Shown: one piece after another, positions 2,227 to 9,088 of the stretch
Layout of the letters: each line of letters starts with the position of its first letter
Position numbering within the stretch: position 1 is the first letter of the stretch
Origin: Acidobacteria bacterium RIFCSPLOWO2_12_FULL_65_11
Lineage (GTDB): Bacteria > Acidobacteriota > Vicinamibacteria > Vicinamibacterales > CAVVIG01
NCBI GenBank assembly: GCA_001767495.1
Contig: MELA01000107.1
Location: forward strand, 18,971 to 73,415
Reading direction: 5' to 3'
DNA: 54,445 nt
Made by a program: the position numbers and the translations under genes
The notes under the pieces: generated by a model
Databases searched by the model: none
What the model saw: the letters and a program-made list of their open reading frames with translations, nothing else
What the model was told of the DNA's origin: nothing

Positions 2227-2309
2227 CTATAAGCCACAGGGGCTCGGAGGACCCAGAGGGATTTTAACCACAGAGCCACCGAGACACGGAGGCACGGACC
2301 TCCTTGGGA

Positions 2310-2452
2310 GGCGTCGCACGGGGGCCGGCGGAGCCGGCCGCTGCCTGATCAGAAGCACGGATGGAAAACGCAAACTACTTCACGCGCTTGTTGTTTGTGT
2401 TTTCCATCCGTGCTTCTGATCAGAGGCCCGCTTTGCGGGCGCGTGCGACGCC
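2310..2452. repeat. 143-nt nested palindrome (cruciform-type)
   Basis: The outer arms GGCGTCGCACG (2310-2320) and CGTGCGACGCC (2442-2452) pair perfectly. Inside are two small hairpins (GGCCGGC..GCCGGCC near 2322-2338 and GCCCGCTTTGCGGGC at 2426-2440) and a central pair of 31-nt arms (2345-2375 and 2393-2423) with a single mismatch and a 17-nt loop. The structure begins directly after the GxxExxY stop codon. It could end transcription or be the folded end of a mobile unit. Confidence 0.8.
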
Positions 2453-2893
2453 CTACAGGATAAGCCGCTTGATCCCTTCTTTCAGAAGACGTGAGTTGAA
2501 GTTCATGAGCAGACCGACCCGCTTGCCTGTCAGCCGAAGGTACGTCAGCAGTTGGGCTTCGTGAACAGGACTCAAGTGCTCGACGCACTTCACCTCTACC
2601 AGCACGAGATCGCCGACTACGAGGTCGACACGGTACTCGCCGAGCAGTCTGCCCTTGTAGTAGGCAGGAATGCGTGTCTGCCGAACGAACGACATGCCGC
2701 AGTCTTCCAGCTCGATGCACATCGCCGACTCGTAGATCTGCTCGAGCAGGCCCGGACCGAGTGCGCGATGAACGTCGATGGCACATGCGATGACTCGCGA
2801 CGTGAACAGATTGATTTGATCGATTTGTATGTTTCGTGTGTCTTGTGTGCTTTGGGTCTTCTCCGTGTCTTTGTGGCTCTGTGGTTCATTCAT
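2453..2893 (-). CDS. GxxExxY family PDDEXK-like protein
   Basis: A 146-aa protein of the GxxExxY family (PDDEXK_3 clan). The signature GPGLLEQIYE lies near residue 46, and a nuclease-like core YRVDLVVGDLVLVEVKCV supplies the D...ExK residues. The molecular role of the family is not established. The first 20 or so residues (MNEPQSHKDTEKTQS) are encoded by the CACAGAG/CACGGAG repeat that flanks the cassette, so the native domain probably starts near IQIDQINLFTSRVI. Its ATG overlaps the methylase TGA by 4 nt (ATGA). It therefore behaves as the third gene of the helicase-methylase operon, although it may have arrived by insertion. Confidence 0.9.
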   Translation of the reverse strand: MNEPQSHKDTEKTQSTQDTRNIQIDQINLFTSRVIACAIDVHRALGPGLLEQIYESAMCIELEDCGMSFVRQTRIPAYYKGRLLGEYRVDLVVGDLVLVEVKCVEHLSPVHEAQLLTYLRLTGKRVGLLMNFNSRLLKEGIKRLIL

Positions 2894-5800
2894 CTCTGCG
2901 ACCTCCGTGTCCCTGTGGCGAAAAGACGAAAGGCAGCGTCGCGCGCCTCCTGCGGGATCAGCGGGAACGTCGAGAGGACGTGCGCGAACTCGTCGGTCGT
3001 CAACTGATAGAGCTCGGCGACCCGCGCCTGCAGACGCGCGAAGACGAGGGGATCGAGATGACGCCCGCGCCGCGTCAGCAGCCTCGCGAGTGAGGCCACT
3101 TCACGGACGGCTGCGGGCGCGGCGTCGCGCGTCGGGATCGGCAGGTGCTCGACTGTGGCCGTGGTGACGTGCAGCGTCACCTGCAGCCGCACCAGGAAAT
3201 TGACCACGAAGCTGTTGAACAGCCCGCACAGATATTGCTGATCCCGGAGGGCGAGCGGCGAGCGCAGGCAGAACAGCGTGTGGGTGGAGACGCAGCCGGC
3301 CGGCAGGATCGCGGCGATGAGCGTCACGCGGTTCGTGGCGCCCGCAATGTCGCGGTACGCCAGCCGCGGACGTAGGTAGCGGCCATCGGGCAGCAGCCGA
3401 TGCGCCTCGCGAGAGCGGATGGCGTGTCGAGCCGACCCCAGATCCACGTCGAACGGCTGGATCTGTTTCCCCTCGACAATCGGCAGCCCTGCCCCCGGCG
3501 CACAGAAGGATCCGCGATCGTCGGTGGCGTTGAGCTCGCGGCCAAACCGCACCGACCAGCCGGACGGACTGCCGAGCGAGGGGAACAGCGCAGCGGCTCG
3601 TTCTGCGATGGCGAGATCCGTCGGCGTCTGCACCCACGGAATCGTCAGGTCCGGGCCCGACAGCCGATCGAGCACCGCCGGCGTGAGCCGGCTGACGAAC
3701 CACCGGGAGGACGCTGCCGGCTCTTCGCCGATCGATTCGAGCTCGGAGGGGTCGTCGAGGCCGAACCGGCAGGCGATCGAGCTCGTCGGCCGGCCGGTGG
3801 ACGCGGTCAGCAGCAGGAACCGGACCCCGCGGTGAATCGGGAACACACCGCGCCGGTTGTCGAAGCCGACGAGGGTGTCAACGTCCGAGCGGGCGAGGAG
3901 CAGGCGACGCAGCGAGGCGCTGCCGCGATCGGCGGCGAGACCCCATGGCAGCACGAGGCCCAGGCGTCCGCCGGCGCGGGCGAGCGAGCGCGCGCGCTCG
4001 ACAAAGAGCTGGTAGCGATTCGCGTGGCCGTCGGACTGAGCGCGGTAGATGCCGGCGTCGCGCGTGAACCGCATCATCAGGGCAAGGCCTTCTCGCGCGT
4101 GGCTCCTGACGTCTGTCGTTCCCGTGTCGGCGCGAATCATGTCCCACGGCGGGTTGCCAATCACGGCGTCAAAGCCTCCGTTGGCCAGGCGTGCGCCGTC
4201 GGGCGCGAAGAATACTTCGGGAAACTCGAGCTCCCAATGAAAGAACCGTCGCGCCCCGGCAACCTCTTCGCTGGCGCACAGATAGTCGCGTGTGGCTTGC
4301 GGCGGGAGCGAACCGCCGCCGGTCAGGATGGCGTCCGACAATGCACCGAACGCGGCGGGCGGCACCCCACGATCGGCCGACTGGAACCACGAGGCGCACC
4401 AGAGATCTGCGACCCGCTTCCAACGAGTGAGCGCTGAGTCTCGGCTGTTTATCGTGGCAAGCGCCCGCTCCTTGGCGCGCACGCTCTCGATCGTGTCGTT
4501 CGGCATCGACTCGAGCGAGAAGCGCACGGGCACGGCGGCGCCGAGCGCGTCATTGAAGCCAGGGAAGCGCGGCTCGTCAAACAGGGGCAACTCCTCTTCG
4601 ACCGAGGCTCGGCGCCCTCGCGCACGATGCGGCAGGCGACCGAGCGATGCGACCCACGCGCCGAGCAGACTGTCGCCAACGGCCAAGCGATGGTCGAGAA
4701 AACTGAGCGGTCGATCCGCCGCGAGCGTCGTCAGCCACAACGAGAGGCGGGCGAGTTGAACGGCCACTGGATTGAGGTCGACGCCGTACAGGCAGCGCTC
4801 GGCAATCGAACGGCGGACCGCGGCGCGGTCTTGGTCGCCAAGATCGCCCGGCCGACAGCCGCCCGTCTGGATGAGCGCCGCCTCGTACGCCCCGGCAAGA
4901 TAGCGGCACGCGGCGACGAGAAAGGCGCCGCTCCCCATCGAGGGATCGACCACGCGCAGCTGCAGGATGCGATCGGGTGTGGCGTCGCGGACGAGCGGAC
5001 CGAGCGTTCGGCGGACGAGGTACTCGGCGATCGGTTGAGGCGTGTAGAACGTGCCGGTGGCCTTGCGGACCCCGGAGCCTGGGATCAGCGTGACAGACGG
5101 GCGTCGGCCTCGGCCATGGCCCTTTGTAGTGTCCGGCTTCAGCCGGACCGTGGACGTCACGTGCGGTACGTAATCGAGCAGCGTCTCGTACACCGCCCCG
5201 AGCTGCTCGACGCCGAGATCGCGGTACGCAATCGGCTCACGTCCGGCGCGATCGGTCGACGGGCGCGTCGACAGCGCCAGGATCGCCCGCTGCGCCGCGC
5301 CATCGTCGAGATCGCGTCGCTCGGCGAGCGGCGTCCGCGCCGGCGCGAACAGGCGGCCGTTGAACGGCGTGACGCGGAGATCGCCGGCGCGGCATCCAGC
5401 GTGGGCGAGACGCGCCATGGCCCGCAGGGCGTCCCAAAGCCCCGGTGCGCCCTGCGGGTGTTCGGCCGCCTCGCGCAGAGCCTGCACGCTGTAGCTGTCG
5501 CGGTACACGGGGTGCCACAGAGGTACGAGGGCGCGCGCTTCGGCGAAGAGCAGAAAGACGATGCGGTAGACGATGGTGAGCGCCTGATCGAAGGTGTCGT
5601 CGAGCGTGAACGGGTGTCTCGTGGTCTGAGGCCGGACGAGCGCGTTGAGGACGTCGGCTGATGCGGCCAGCACGCCGTCCTTGAGGGACCGGCACACACC
5701 CGACGCGTGACGATCCGAGGCTTCGACCAAAACGTGAAGCGGTGTTCCGGTCCGCCTGAAGGCGGACACTACATCGGATTGCGGAACGGTTGCGGTCCGC

Positions 5801-6381
5801 CTAACCGCGGACACGACATCGGATGGTGGAGCGGGTTCCAGATCGCCGGAGGGCGAGTTGGTGAGTCCGTGCGCGCTGACGACGGCCAGAAAGGCGGCGA
5901 AGGCGCGCGGGTCGTCGAGGGTCAGATCCAGGTCGAACTCGATGTGTCGGCGCGCGAAGAGGCGTGCCGCATCGATGGCTCGGAGATGCGTGCCGTTGAA
6001 CAGAAGGCACCAGGGTGCGGATCGTGCGAGGGCCTCGGTGACGGCCGTGCGCCACAGCGGGTCGAGACGATCGCCCCACGATGCGACGAGCAGCGCCGTG
6101 GGGCGCGGGCCCCCGCGCAGGACGGCGGCGATCGACCGGTCGGCCGGTCTGATGTCCGACGGCGGATCGAATCCGAGCGCCGCGACGAGCGGCGCGGCGC
6201 CGACCTGCAGCATGGCGTGCACACTCGACGCGGGCCCGAGCGCCGCCGACCCTCGCCGCCACGCGACCAGCTCGCGATAGACGCGATCGATGAGCCGGTT
6301 GGTCTCGGCATTCCCGATCGTCGGGAGATAGGCTTCGAGGAACGCTTCCGAGACGAGATGGCCGGAGAGACCGGGGATCAT
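2890..6381 (-). CDS. Eco57I-like N6-adenine DNA methylase / putative restriction-modification protein
   Basis: Large (1163 aa) protein resembling type IIG and BREX/DISARM-type adenine methylases. Residues 1-170 form an N-terminal region that could hold a degenerate nuclease domain (WCLLFNGTHLRAID). The pre-methylase motif GTFYTPQPIAEYLVRR is near 443, the SAM-binding motif I VDPSMGSGAFLVAA near 478, and the catalytic NPPW tetrad near 743. The C-terminal 350 residues resemble target-recognition regions. Three palindromic repeats are translated in frame (about residues 188-212 and 410-420). The last nine residues (ATGTRRSQR) are repeat-encoded, so the native C-terminus may be lost. It starts 25 nt after the helicase stop with TGAGGTTAGG before ATG. 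Function inferred: DNA modification in a defence system. Confidence 0.88.
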   Translation of the reverse strand: MIPGLSGHLVSEAFLEAYLPTIGNAETNRLIDRVYRELVAWRRGSAALGPASSVHAMLQVGAAPLVAALGFDPPSDIRPADRSIAAVLRGGPRPTALLVASWGDRLDPLWRTAVTEALARSAPWCLLFNGTHLRAIDAARLFARRHIEFDLDLTLDDPRAFAAFLAVVSAHGLTNSPSGDLEPAPPSDVVSAVRRTATVPQSDVVSAFRRTGTPLHVLVEASDRHASGVCRSLKDGVLAASADVLNALVRPQTTRHPFTLDDTFDQALTIVYRIVFLLFAEARALVPLWHPVYRDSYSVQALREAAEHPQGAPGLWDALRAMARLAHAGCRAGDLRVTPFNGRLFAPARTPLAERRDLDDGAAQRAILALSTRPSTDRAGREPIAYRDLGVEQLGAVYETLLDYVPHVTSTVRLKPDTTKGHGRGRRPSVTLIPGSGVRKATGTFYTPQPIAEYLVRRTLGPLVRDATPDRILQLRVVDPSMGSGAFLVAACRYLAGAYEAALIQTGGCRPGDLGDQDRAAVRRSIAERCLYGVDLNPVAVQLARLSLWLTTLAADRPLSFLDHRLAVGDSLLGAWVASLGRLPHRARGRRASVEEELPLFDEPRFPGFNDALGAAVPVRFSLESMPNDTIESVRAKERALATINSRDSALTRWKRVADLWCASWFQSADRGVPPAAFGALSDAILTGGGSLPPQATRDYLCASEEVAGARRFFHWELEFPEVFFAPDGARLANGGFDAVIGNPPWDMIRADTGTTDVRSHAREGLALMMRFTRDAGIYRAQSDGHANRYQLFVERARSLARAGGRLGLVLPWGLAADRGSASLRRLLLARSDVDTLVGFDNRRGVFPIHRGVRFLLLTASTGRPTSSIACRFGLDDPSELESIGEEPAASSRWFVSRLTPAVLDRLSGPDLTIPWVQTPTDLAIAERAAALFPSLGSPSGWSVRFGRELNATDDRGSFCAPGAGLPIVEGKQIQPFDVDLGSARHAIRSREAHRLLPDGRYLRPRLAYRDIAGATNRVTLIAAILPAGCVSTHTLFCLRSPLALRDQQYLCGLFNSFVVNFLVRLQVTLHVTTATVEHLPIPTRDAAPAAVREVASLARLLTRRGRHLDPLVFARLQARVAELYQLTTDEFAHVLSTFPLIPQEARDAAFRLFATGTRRSQR
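5125..5149. repeat. GTCCGGCTTCAGCCGGAC palindrome inside the methylase gene
   Basis: Exact copy of the window's main palindrome family (TGTAGT followed by GTCCGGCTTCAGCCGGAC). It lies in frame within the methylase and encodes the peptide VRLKPDTT near residue 412, between the N-terminal and methylase domains. Confidence 0.9.
5749..5823. repeat. Two tandem palindrome copies inside the methylase gene
   Basis: Two related units, GGTCCGCCTGAAGGCGGAC and GGTCCGCCTAACCGCGGAC, each followed by AC(T/G)ACATCGGAT. They are read in frame as SDVVSAFRRTGT and SDVVSAVRRTAT near residues 187-213. The second copy has diverged so that its hairpin is imperfect. Confidence 0.85.
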
Positions 6382-6406
6382 CCTAACCTCAGGGGATGAA
6401 ATCGGT

Positions 6407-9088
6407 TCAGGGCGTCAGCACGAGCAGAAGCACGGCGTCGGTCGGCGACAGCACGGCGGCCTGCTCGAGGACCTCGATCGTTGCGGCCCACTCGAGATCC
6501 CGATCGCCTTGGGCGGCGAGGATGGCCAGCCGCGCGTGTTCGCTGCGGCGGTCGAACAGACCCGGCTGGAAGATCGTGGGTACCGAAGGGTCTGTCGCGC
6601 CGATCGCACGCGCTCGATTCAGCCTGGCGCCTATGAATGCAGAGTGGATCTCAGAGGCTCGTTGCCGCCACGCCGTCGCGGCCAGATCAACGGTTCGCTG
6701 AATGTCTGCATCGAGGCTACACAACAGATCCCATGTAGTGTCCGCCTTTGGGCGGGCCGTGTCGGTCCGGCTGAAGCCGGACACTACAGCCTCGGACACT
6801 ACAGCCTCGGACACCACAGCCTCGGACACTACGGCTCCAGGGCCGGCCAGTTCGATGAGCAGGGGCACGAGAACCGAGCCGGCCGTGCATCGCGCGCCAG
6901 CGGCGCCGGCCTCCATGCCGGCCCGGCACAACAGCAGCAGTCGCCGTCCGAGCGCCGCGCGGGTTTGCGACCGACGCGCCGCCGCCAGACACGGTCCACG
7001 CCCGTCGACTTGGGCCAGCGCATCTTGGTCGCCCGCGTGCAGGAGCGCCCGCGCGCGGACAATCCGCTCGACCTCGGCCCTGGCATCAGCGGCCAGCGCC
7101 GGCGTCACAAGGTTCTCGTCGGCCGCACCTCCATTTGTTGTCGCCTCAGTTGTAGTGTCCGGCTTGAGCCGGACCCCTGTAGTGTCCGGCTTCAGCCGGA
7201 CCTCGACTGGGCCTTCAGCTGTAGTGTCCGGCTTGAGCCGGACCTCGACGGCCGTCTGCTCGATGACGGCTCGCGCCATGGCACCTTCCTCGGTTATCTC
7301 TTCATCCATCCCCAGCGGATCGGGCGCGCCGATGTCGGCCTGCGCTCGAGCCATGCGCTCCTCGAGCCGGGCCAGGATCCGCGGCTCGCTGCTGCCGCGC
7401 GCGATCAAATGAAACGCGTGCACGGTCCGCATCTGGCCGATGCGATCGACGCGCCCAATGCGCTGCTCGAGCCGCATCGGGTTCCACGGCAGCTCCAGAT
7501 TGATGACGGCGCGGCAGGCGTGATGGAGATTGAGCCCCTCGCCGGCCGCGTCGGTGGCCAGCAGGACGGACGACAGGCCCCGCGTGAACTCGCCGATGGC
7601 GGCAAGACGCTCGTCGCGCGTCAGTCCGCCATGGAGCTGTGACACACGACTGTGGAGCGACGCACGCAGGTGAACGAGCGTGTCGCGGTATTCCGTGAAC
7701 ACAATCGCCGGCTCGTCAATTCGGCGAAGCAGGCGACCCAAGGCGCCGATCTTTGTCTCGTCACGGGTCGCCTCAGCCGCGGCGGCTGCGAGCTCGCCAA
7801 GCATCTGCCGCTCGCGCGAAGGATCTCGCAGGCCAAGGGCCGGGGGCCACGCCGGCGGCAGGTCGGCTGTTGTGAGCTCGCCGGTCGTGTCGATGAGGGG
7901 CAGCTGGATCTGGCCCTCTTCATCGGCGCCCCTCGACGCGAGGGCGGCGAGCCGCCGCTCGACCGAACGCTGAAGCGACCGGGCGCTCGACAGCGCGCGC
8001 TTGTGCAGCACGGAAAGGGCCAGCCAGATACCGGAGTTCTCGGGGTTCGCGCGGTTCGCAGGGTTCCCGCGGTGCGCAAGGTTCACCGAGCGTGCCCGGC
8101 CGTGCTCGTGTTGGACGGCTCGCGAGAAGCGCGCGAGCAGCGCATGCATGCGCGCTTCGGCGGCGCTCGGGCGGACGAACAGTCGATGGATCCGGCGGGG
8201 TGTGCCAAATCGGACGTCCGCGCGCGTGCGGCGAAAGAGCAGGAGCCGATCGCCTGGAGCGGTGCCGAGCGCGCCGAGCCGGCACAGAGAAACAAACGCG
8301 CGGCGATCGCCGCTGTGGGGTGTGGCCGTGAGCAGCACGACGAACGGCGCGCGCGAGGTGAGCGCGGCGGCCGCCGCGTGCCGGTCGCTGTTGCCGGCCA
8401 CCCCATGCGCTTCGTCGACGATGACGAGATCCCAGCGGCAGGCGGCGACGCTCGTCAGAATGTCCGCGCGCCTGACGTAATCGATCGACGCGATGGCGAC
8501 GGGCGAGGTTCGCCACGGGTTGACGCCGACCCTCAGCGTGGCCACCGCGCGCCTCACGGCGCGCGCGTCGAGAATCGTCGCGTCGATCTCGAAGCGATCG
8601 GCCAGCTCGCGCGCCCACTGATCGCGAAGGCCTGGCGGCGTGAGAATCAGCACCCGGTCGGCCGCGCCGAGCGCCTGCAGCTCGGACACAATCAACCCGG
8701 CTTGAATTGTCTTGCCCAGCCCGACCGCATCGGCCAGCAGGACACGGGATCCCAGACCGCGGAGAAGCGCCAGCGCCGGCTCGAGCTGATGCGGGAGCAG
8801 ATCGATGCGCGCGCGGCGGGCGCATCGCAACCCGCCGGGCGGCGTCTCTTGGGCGACGAGCGCCCGGCACACGCGCCGCCACAGGCGCATGGAGATGTGC
8901 GTCGGCCGCCTTCGGCGCTCGATGCGCTCGAGGATGTCGAAGGGGGCCAGCATGCGGCGCTCGGCCCGCGCGTTGGCCGGGTCGATGCCGGTGAGGGTGA
9001 AAAGCTGACAGCTCTCGTACAGCCGAATGTCAGCGACCCGCCACCGAGCGTGCCGCGCGCGGACGACATCGGTTCGCAGAATCTGCAT
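6407..9088 (-). CDS. SNF2-like superfamily 2 DEAH helicase/translocase
   Basis: An 893-aa superfamily 2 ATPase of the SNF2/RapA type, expected to translocate on DNA. Landmarks: Walker A region LLADAVGLGKTIQAGLI (residues 117-133), DEAH box LVIVDEAHGV (221-230), motif III VLLTATPHSG (251-260), and helicase C motifs VFTEYRDTL (463), LLATDAAGEGLNLH (509) and motif VI EQRIGRVDRIGQ (541-552). The C-terminal 280 residues are poorly conserved and carry in-frame palindromes (615-645 and 751-785) plus a short Asn-rich tandem at 340-352. It is the first gene of an operon with the methylase, 25 nt downstream. A SNF2 helicase next to an adenine methylase recalls class 1 DISARM (DrmD, DrmMI), but drmA, drmB and drmC are absent. 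Confidence 0.92.
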   Translation of the reverse strand: MQILRTDVVRARHARWRVADIRLYESCQLFTLTGIDPANARAERRMLAPFDILERIERRRRPTHISMRLWRRVCRALVAQETPPGGLRCARRARIDLLPHQLEPALALLRGLGSRVLLADAVGLGKTIQAGLIVSELQALGAADRVLILTPPGLRDQWARELADRFEIDATILDARAVRRAVATLRVGVNPWRTSPVAIASIDYVRRADILTSVAACRWDLVIVDEAHGVAGNSDRHAAAAALTSRAPFVVLLTATPHSGDRRAFVSLCRLGALGTAPGDRLLLFRRTRADVRFGTPRRIHRLFVRPSAAEARMHALLARFSRAVQHEHGRARSVNLAHRGNPANRANPENSGIWLALSVLHKRALSSARSLQRSVERRLAALASRGADEEGQIQLPLIDTTGELTTADLPPAWPPALGLRDPSRERQMLGELAAAAAEATRDETKIGALGRLLRRIDEPAIVFTEYRDTLVHLRASLHSRVSQLHGGLTRDERLAAIGEFTRGLSSVLLATDAAGEGLNLHHACRAVINLELPWNPMRLEQRIGRVDRIGQMRTVHAFHLIARGSSEPRILARLEERMARAQADIGAPDPLGMDEEITEEGAMARAVIEQTAVEVRLKPDTTAEGPVEVRLKPDTTGVRLKPDTTTEATTNGGAADENLVTPALAADARAEVERIVRARALLHAGDQDALAQVDGRGPCLAAARRSQTRAALGRRLLLLCRAGMEAGAAGARCTAGSVLVPLLIELAGPGAVVSEAVVSEAVVSEAVVSGFSRTDTARPKADTTWDLLCSLDADIQRTVDLAATAWRQRASEIHSAFIGARLNRARAIGATDPSVPTIFQPGLFDRRSEHARLAILAAQGDRDLEWAATIEVLEQAAVLSPTDAVLLLVLTP
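6734..6831. repeat. Palindrome cluster plus 15-bp tandem inside the helicase gene
   Basis: One divergent palindrome, one full palindrome (GTCCGGCTGAAGCCGGAC), and then four near-identical units of CTCGGACACTACAGC (one with ACACCACAGC). All are translated in frame on the minus strand as repeated VVSEA followed by VVSGFSRTDT, at residues 751-785 of the helicase. Confidence 0.88.
7151..7243. repeat. Three palindromes in a row inside the helicase gene
   Basis: Three copies of TGTAGT plus GTCCGGCTT(G/C)AGCCGGAC at 7151-7175, 7178-7202 and 7219-7243. Each is translated in frame as VRLKPDTT (helicase residues 615-645). The spacers keep frame, so the ORF stays open through all three. Confidence 0.92.
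8041..8085. repeat. 9-bp GTTCGCNNG tandem inside the helicase gene
   Basis: About five degenerate 9-bp units (GTTCGCGCG, GTTCGCAGG, GTTCCCGCG, GTGCGCAAG, GTTCACC), read on the minus strand as an Asn/Pro-rich linker (GNPANRANPE) between the two helicase lobes. The 9-bp period preserves the frame. Confidence 0.7.

Follow-up and report, generated by a model that had tools for sequence, protein, structure and literature searches.

Inverted tandem arrays bracket GxxExxY genes and gene-less intergenic elements in bacterial genomes

Introduction

In REPIN/RAYT systems, each genome has one or a few chromosomal genes and many short, gene-less, intergenic inverted-repeat elements whose DNA forms hairpins; the RAYT protein is a HUH Y1 tyrosine transposase, and the REPs are tagged GTAG/CGTC (PMC3116915, PMC8266576). 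The system described here, centred on GxxExxY genes, likewise has few genes and many dispersed, hairpin-forming, non-coding inverted elements linked to the gene, and GxxExxY too is hardly ever found on phages or plasmids. However, its protein is of the PD-(D/E)XK type and not HUH Y1, and its ends are variable tandem arrays in place of GTAG/CGTC-tagged REPs. There is also a resemblance to MITEs and their autonomous parent insertion sequence, in the shared terminal inverted repeats, the gene-less copies and the empty sites; in contrast to these, the GxxExxY element lacks a DDE or serine transposase and its ends vary by element; no target-site duplication was recognised at the sites compared. Free-standing homing endonuclease genes exist as well, some of them with PD-(D/E)XK folds, and the GxxExxY element resembles them in having a small nuclease gene as its sole product and in being scattered through genomes. 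Unlike them, it is bounded on each side by inverted arrays and accompanied by numerous gene-less copies, and no single conserved target was seen. Finally, intervening sequences of 23S rRNA carry S23/TIGR02436 genes (PMC4990558). Here the likeness lies in the small orphan gene and in the fact that TIGR02436 genes are also bracketed by arrays, but the GxxExxY protein is unrelated, the unit types are other ones, and the element studied here is not in rRNA.

GxxExxY is annotated in many environmental genomes and has been mentioned in passing in the literature; a literature search that covered few subscription journals found no earlier description of these repeats or of the element. The ends, miniatures and empty sites reported below give the gene a context and a testable role. 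Because the inverted-array ends occur together with many gene-less copies in gene-bearing genomes, this seems to be a class of bacterial mobile DNA that has escaped notice. It may best be read as a REPIN/RAYT-like pair, in which an autonomous element with a putative nuclease function is accompanied by non-autonomous miniatures.

Results

A GxxExxY gene between inverted arms at the end of a methylase gene

The window, by which we mean the whole stretch of 54,445 nucleotides that was analysed, contains a row of minus-strand genes for a helicase (6407-9088), a methylase, a GxxExxY protein and an aldehyde dehydrogenase (748-2226). The features of this region are as follows.

2233-2291, plus strand: left inverted arm, directly upstream of the aldehyde dehydrogenase gene
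2310-2452 (folded as 2308-2452), no strand: three-armed hairpin core, with a stem GGCGTCGCACG/CGTGCGACGCC, a pair of GC-rich triloop hairpins and a single long hairpin
2345-2423, no strand: the long hairpin within the core, with arms 2345-2378 and 2390-2423 that are 94% complementary
2453-2893, minus strand: GxxExxY gene, predicted PD-(D/E)XK nuclease, with conserved E51, D90, E100-x-K102 and Q114-x3-Y118
2861-2919, minus strand: right inverted arm, coding for the methylase tail TGTRRSQR and the GxxExxY N-terminus NEPQSHKDTEK
2890-2893, minus strand: ATGA overlap of the methylase stop (TGA) and the GxxExxY start (ATG)
2890-6381, minus strand: Eco57I-type adenine DNA methyltransferase, host gene of an old insertion, with its 3' end provided by the element's arm

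The two arms, 59 nt each and separated by 569 nt, are 80% complementary, and their core (AACCACAGAGCCACCGAGACACGGAG / AACCACAGAGCCACAAAGACACGGAG) is identical at 24 of 26 positions, as the initial annotation of this locus had correctly reported. Their alignment score is 59, whereas 5000 shuffles reached at most 29, and 1250 pairs taken with the same geometry from other parts of the window at most 42. The left arm is composed of an outer array (CACAGGG/CTCGGAG/CCCAGAG), the sequence GGATTTTAA and an inner array, CCACAGAG-CCACCGAG-ACACGGAG. Within the right arm the methylase ORF terminates, as FATGTRRSQR-stop, and the GxxExxY ORF begins, as MNEPQSHKDTEK; the ORFs and arms thus bear out the earlier proposal that one repeat codes for the end of the first protein and the start of the second. 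The bracketed unit first placed at 2262-2920 is real but somewhat larger, extending over about 2233-2919. It is sited between protein genes and not in 23S rRNA; Rfam gave no match, and no rRNA match was found in the window.

The core between the left arm and GxxExxY folds into a stem bearing three hairpins, two of them with triloops and one long (z = -14.1). Three gene-less copies in the same genome (L014, L022 and L013; z = -12, -13 and -10, respectively) have this hairpin architecture between their arms with a different sequence, so that the miniatures resemble the window element with its gene removed.

The methylase and the SNF2-type helicase (2890-9088) resemble a DISARM/BREX-like defence pair, yet their scores fall under the curated cut-offs. 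The window also contains 21 copies, with at most 2 mismatches, of the palindrome GTCCGGCTNNAGCCGGAC (5131-28606 and 53756; 0.05 expected), some of which lie within the helicase and methylase ORFs and are read as VRLKPDTT.

The GxxExxY protein is a predicted nuclease

The protein matches the TIGR04256 profile at 142.4 bits (cut-off 35) and PF13366 (PDDEXK_3) at 139.6 (cut-off 22). In an alignment of 75 sequences, G48-E51-Y54, D90, E100-x-K102 and Q114-x3-Y118 are conserved, and such an E..D..ExK..QxxxY set is expected for PD-(D/E)XK nucleases of the RecB/Cas4 type. Comparison by sequence with solved structures gave nothing beyond chance matches. In Foldseek a structure model (pLDDT 91) has LHK-Exo (E 9e-4) and lambda exonuclease as its nearest matches; in VIA-align the nearest is the Cas4 protein SSO0001 (Z 10.3 over 98 residues). 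On this modelling, GxxExxY is a predicted nuclease of the RecB/Cas4/lambda-exonuclease type of PD-(D/E)XK proteins, with its catalytic residues intact. It is the sole gene in the element, which encodes no transposase-like domain of the DDE, serine or HUH kind.

Inverted arrays at GxxExxY loci across bacterial phyla

We sampled 80 GxxExxY loci from many phyla together with those of the window's phylum, where 88 of 247 genomes bear the gene, which gave 165 usable loci, and aligned the upstream 250 nt of each to the reverse complement of its downstream 350 nt with a threshold score of at least 30. Arms were present at 132 of the 165 loci (80%); the threshold was reached by 0.12% of shuffles, 2% of control positions in the same loci and 7.2% of mispaired arms from different loci. 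About 20% of the loci have no clear arms. Absence of the repeats from other GxxExxY loci had been raised at the outset as an objection to a mobile unit; inverted-array ends are instead general at GxxExxY loci, across many bacterial phyla.

These ends do not consist of one fixed CACAGAG/CACGGAG repeat, as had been supposed from the window. They are short tandem arrays whose units include CACRGAG, CGCNGAG, CACGAAG, CRCNGAT, CACYGAG, CGCRAAG and others, and the two arms of one element agree in unit class and spacing, both of which differ among elements. Even when loci of a single unit class are compared, an element's own arm outscores most mispairs. A complete element is a single GxxExxY gene between inverted arrays of at least three units of 7-10 nt each, with a median span of 494 bp, and the same rare unit classes are found at GxxExxY elements of distant genera. 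Mapped on the protein tree, unit class changes 24 times, as against a minimum of 38 changes in 200 shuffles, or 36 when shuffling is kept inside host groups; this match could be a product of physical linkage by itself. A further shuffle, within host genus, is given no weight, since the named loci have no genus code in it.

In 79 of 134 loci the open frame runs through the left arm, and in 19 of the 134 an ATG gives an array-coded N-terminus. The idea that element ends are translated therefore holds for the methylase tail and GxxExxY start in the window, but N-termini coded by an array are a minority.

Insertion history in the methylase gene

Methylase orthologues are present in 25 of the 27 genomes of the family. 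Among those read to the end, the methylase is followed by an apparently intact GxxExxY gene in G266, G264, G262, G248 and G252 and by a broken one in G260 and G249. The gene is gone from G258 and G256 (loci L264 and L265), and their methylases keep the array-like tails ATETQRTRG and ATETRRSQR, which are apparent translated scars of a lost element; the methylases of G268 and G253 end without any array. Far from being conserved through the repeat, which had been foreseen as a possible argument against an insertion, the methylase C-terminus varies there. Because the orthologues show the element intact, broken or as a translated scar, the insertion in the window is old and inherited, with its end turned into a methylase tail in several lineages. 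In this manner, element ends become C-terminal tails of host proteins.

Occupied and empty sites

A search for empty sites, as suggested in the initial annotation, found them. One such site, in a Geothrix-type genus, lies between ftsA and ftsZ: G208 and G178 have a GxxExxY element after the ftsA stop, and G240 has the element with its gene internally deleted; these 3 genomes have the element and 14 congeners are without it. In G130 the site holds a 263-bp miniature region, and in the other congeners and three other genera just 24-55 nt. At closer range, G026 has a 155-bp array element against 5 nt in G049 (95-97% identical); at the sites compared in these two genomes no target-site duplication or exact insertion point was recognised, and the adjoining sequence differs between the two. 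Elements thus occupy intergenic sites that are empty in relatives. The initial view of a small mobile unit stands as far as arms and empty sites are concerned, but has to accommodate that most copies of the ends have no gene and that the methylase insertion is old.

Two further sites show a more complex pattern. A site beside prfA (L278-L297) is empty in G104, and the arrays that its congeners have there vary in class. At secY-adk in genus g54 (L243-L262), all or nearly all species have an array or what decay has left of one, with a unit class that varies; G192 and G024 have this site empty. Simple transposition does not explain differences in unit class at a single site; repeated use of an intergenic site and replacement of one element by another are guesses at the cause. 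Another possibility is that the arrays at secY-adk and prfA have stayed the same copies and have changed in situ. Given the empty and class-switched sites, this is unlikely to be the full account, although it may hold at secY-adk.

Gene-less arrays occur in genomes that bear GxxExxY

The host genome of the window element (3.55 Mb) has one GxxExxY gene and 34 array matches. The pattern CCACRGAGN{0,8}CACRGAG alone has 22 matches there, as against 0 for the reversed control pattern, and the host matches are mostly inverted pairs around short elements without GxxExxY. Across the genomes, too, most arrays bound gene-less short elements, and there are genomes with 1-2 GxxExxY genes and more than 100 arrays.

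At least five matches of CCACNGAGN{1,3}CACNGAG were found in 49 of 88 GxxExxY-bearing genomes versus 2 of 159 others (p = 7e-25), and at least five arrays of either this class or a second one, CACSAAG, in 62 of 88 versus 5 of 159 (p = 4e-31; 247 genomes); the genomes are interrelated, so these p-values overstate independence, and a fairer measure is that among 16 families with both kinds of genome the bearers have more CACNGAG arrays in 13 and fewer in 1. For CACSAAG by itself the counts are 32 of 88 bearers and 5 of 159 others. Below the threshold in both scanned classes are 26 GxxExxY-bearing genomes. Conversely, the five array-holding genomes without GxxExxY all belong to genera in which other members have the gene, and recent loss or a missed gene is possible in these. 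Among genomes with TIGR02436 genes, CACNGAG arrays are present in 31 of 42 with GxxExxY versus 2 of 35 without; since GxxExxY still predicts arrays there, TIGR02436 is not the explanation of the link. GxxExxY was found on no phages, on 8 of 72,556 plasmids and on one viral contig, where it is itself array-flanked.

Explanations for the arrays and their link to GxxExxY

We consider the best explanation to be that the element and the miniatures owe their spread to the nuclease, and regard this as somewhat probable. The nuclease would recognise the arrays, or hairpins formed by the arrays, and would help its element to be copied or to move, with the miniatures served in trans, in much the way proposed for RAYT and REPINs; conversion or template switching might, at a guess, keep the two arms alike. 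A broader proposal, which we put forward tentatively and at odds a little below even, is that this is an undescribed class of mobile DNA in which a stand-alone RecB/Cas4-like nuclease recognises element-specific arrays and spreads itself and its miniatures, while the arrays diversify with the nuclease. Reading these loci as elements explains both why GxxExxY turns up in unrelated places and why one kind of intergenic repeat recurs in the surveyed genomes. Should the nuclease indeed move the arrays, mobile elements would here manage without a classical transposase.

An unlikely but serious alternative is that GxxExxY is cargo, perhaps a defence or addiction nuclease, and that another enzyme or host replication and recombination spreads the elements. 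Other genes do lie between inverted arrays (TIGR02436 genes with other units, and an HNH nuclease ORF; see below), and arrays occur in the five genomes without GxxExxY. However, the gene predicts arrays even among TIGR02436-positive genomes, and the five exceptions fall in genera with GxxExxY members, where it may recently have been lost or been missed. It is improbable, in our judgement, that the arms act in RNA, pairing in the transcript so that the gene is processed out as in 23S rRNA intervening sequences, with no need for movement of DNA. Many sites are within operons, TIGR02436 genes have the same inverted-array layout, and in co-directional gene pairs the element is in sense in 58 cases versus 18, a count made approximate by longest-ORF gene calls; this is weak evidence. 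If transcript pairing were selected, an excess of G-U over A-C among arm mismatches would be expected; across 134 loci there are 154 G-U and 157 A-C, with no asymmetry, although this too is weak evidence. The lack of an Rfam match and the presence or absence of elements at orthologous DNA sites also argue against action in RNA.

Very improbably, these are static intergenic structures, such as hairpin terminators or spacers, that evolve in concert in place and are linked to GxxExxY only indirectly. The near-constant occupation of secY-adk by arrays or remnants with differing units would fit such structures, but the empty sites in congeners and sister species, the recurrence of rare unit classes at GxxExxY elements of distant genera and the strong link within families would not. 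The units are short and purine-rich, which could favour chance or low-complexity similarity, but the reversed-pattern control, the controls of the arm test and the genome-level link refute it, and we give it next to no weight.

Other genes between inverted arrays

TIGR02436 four-helix-bundle genes (L134-L163) have inverted arrays at 27 of 29 loci, with units of about 7 nt that vary by element, for example CAGGAACC, GTGACTAGG and GGCAGTA. Because this unrelated family shares it, the inverted-array layout may be a general strategy. At another locus (L354, G026:C1 near 2002199), inverted CACCAAG arrays enclose an ORF with an HNH-type motif, a further cargo for ends of this kind; in the close relative G049 this site is instead taken up by about 133 unrelated nt.
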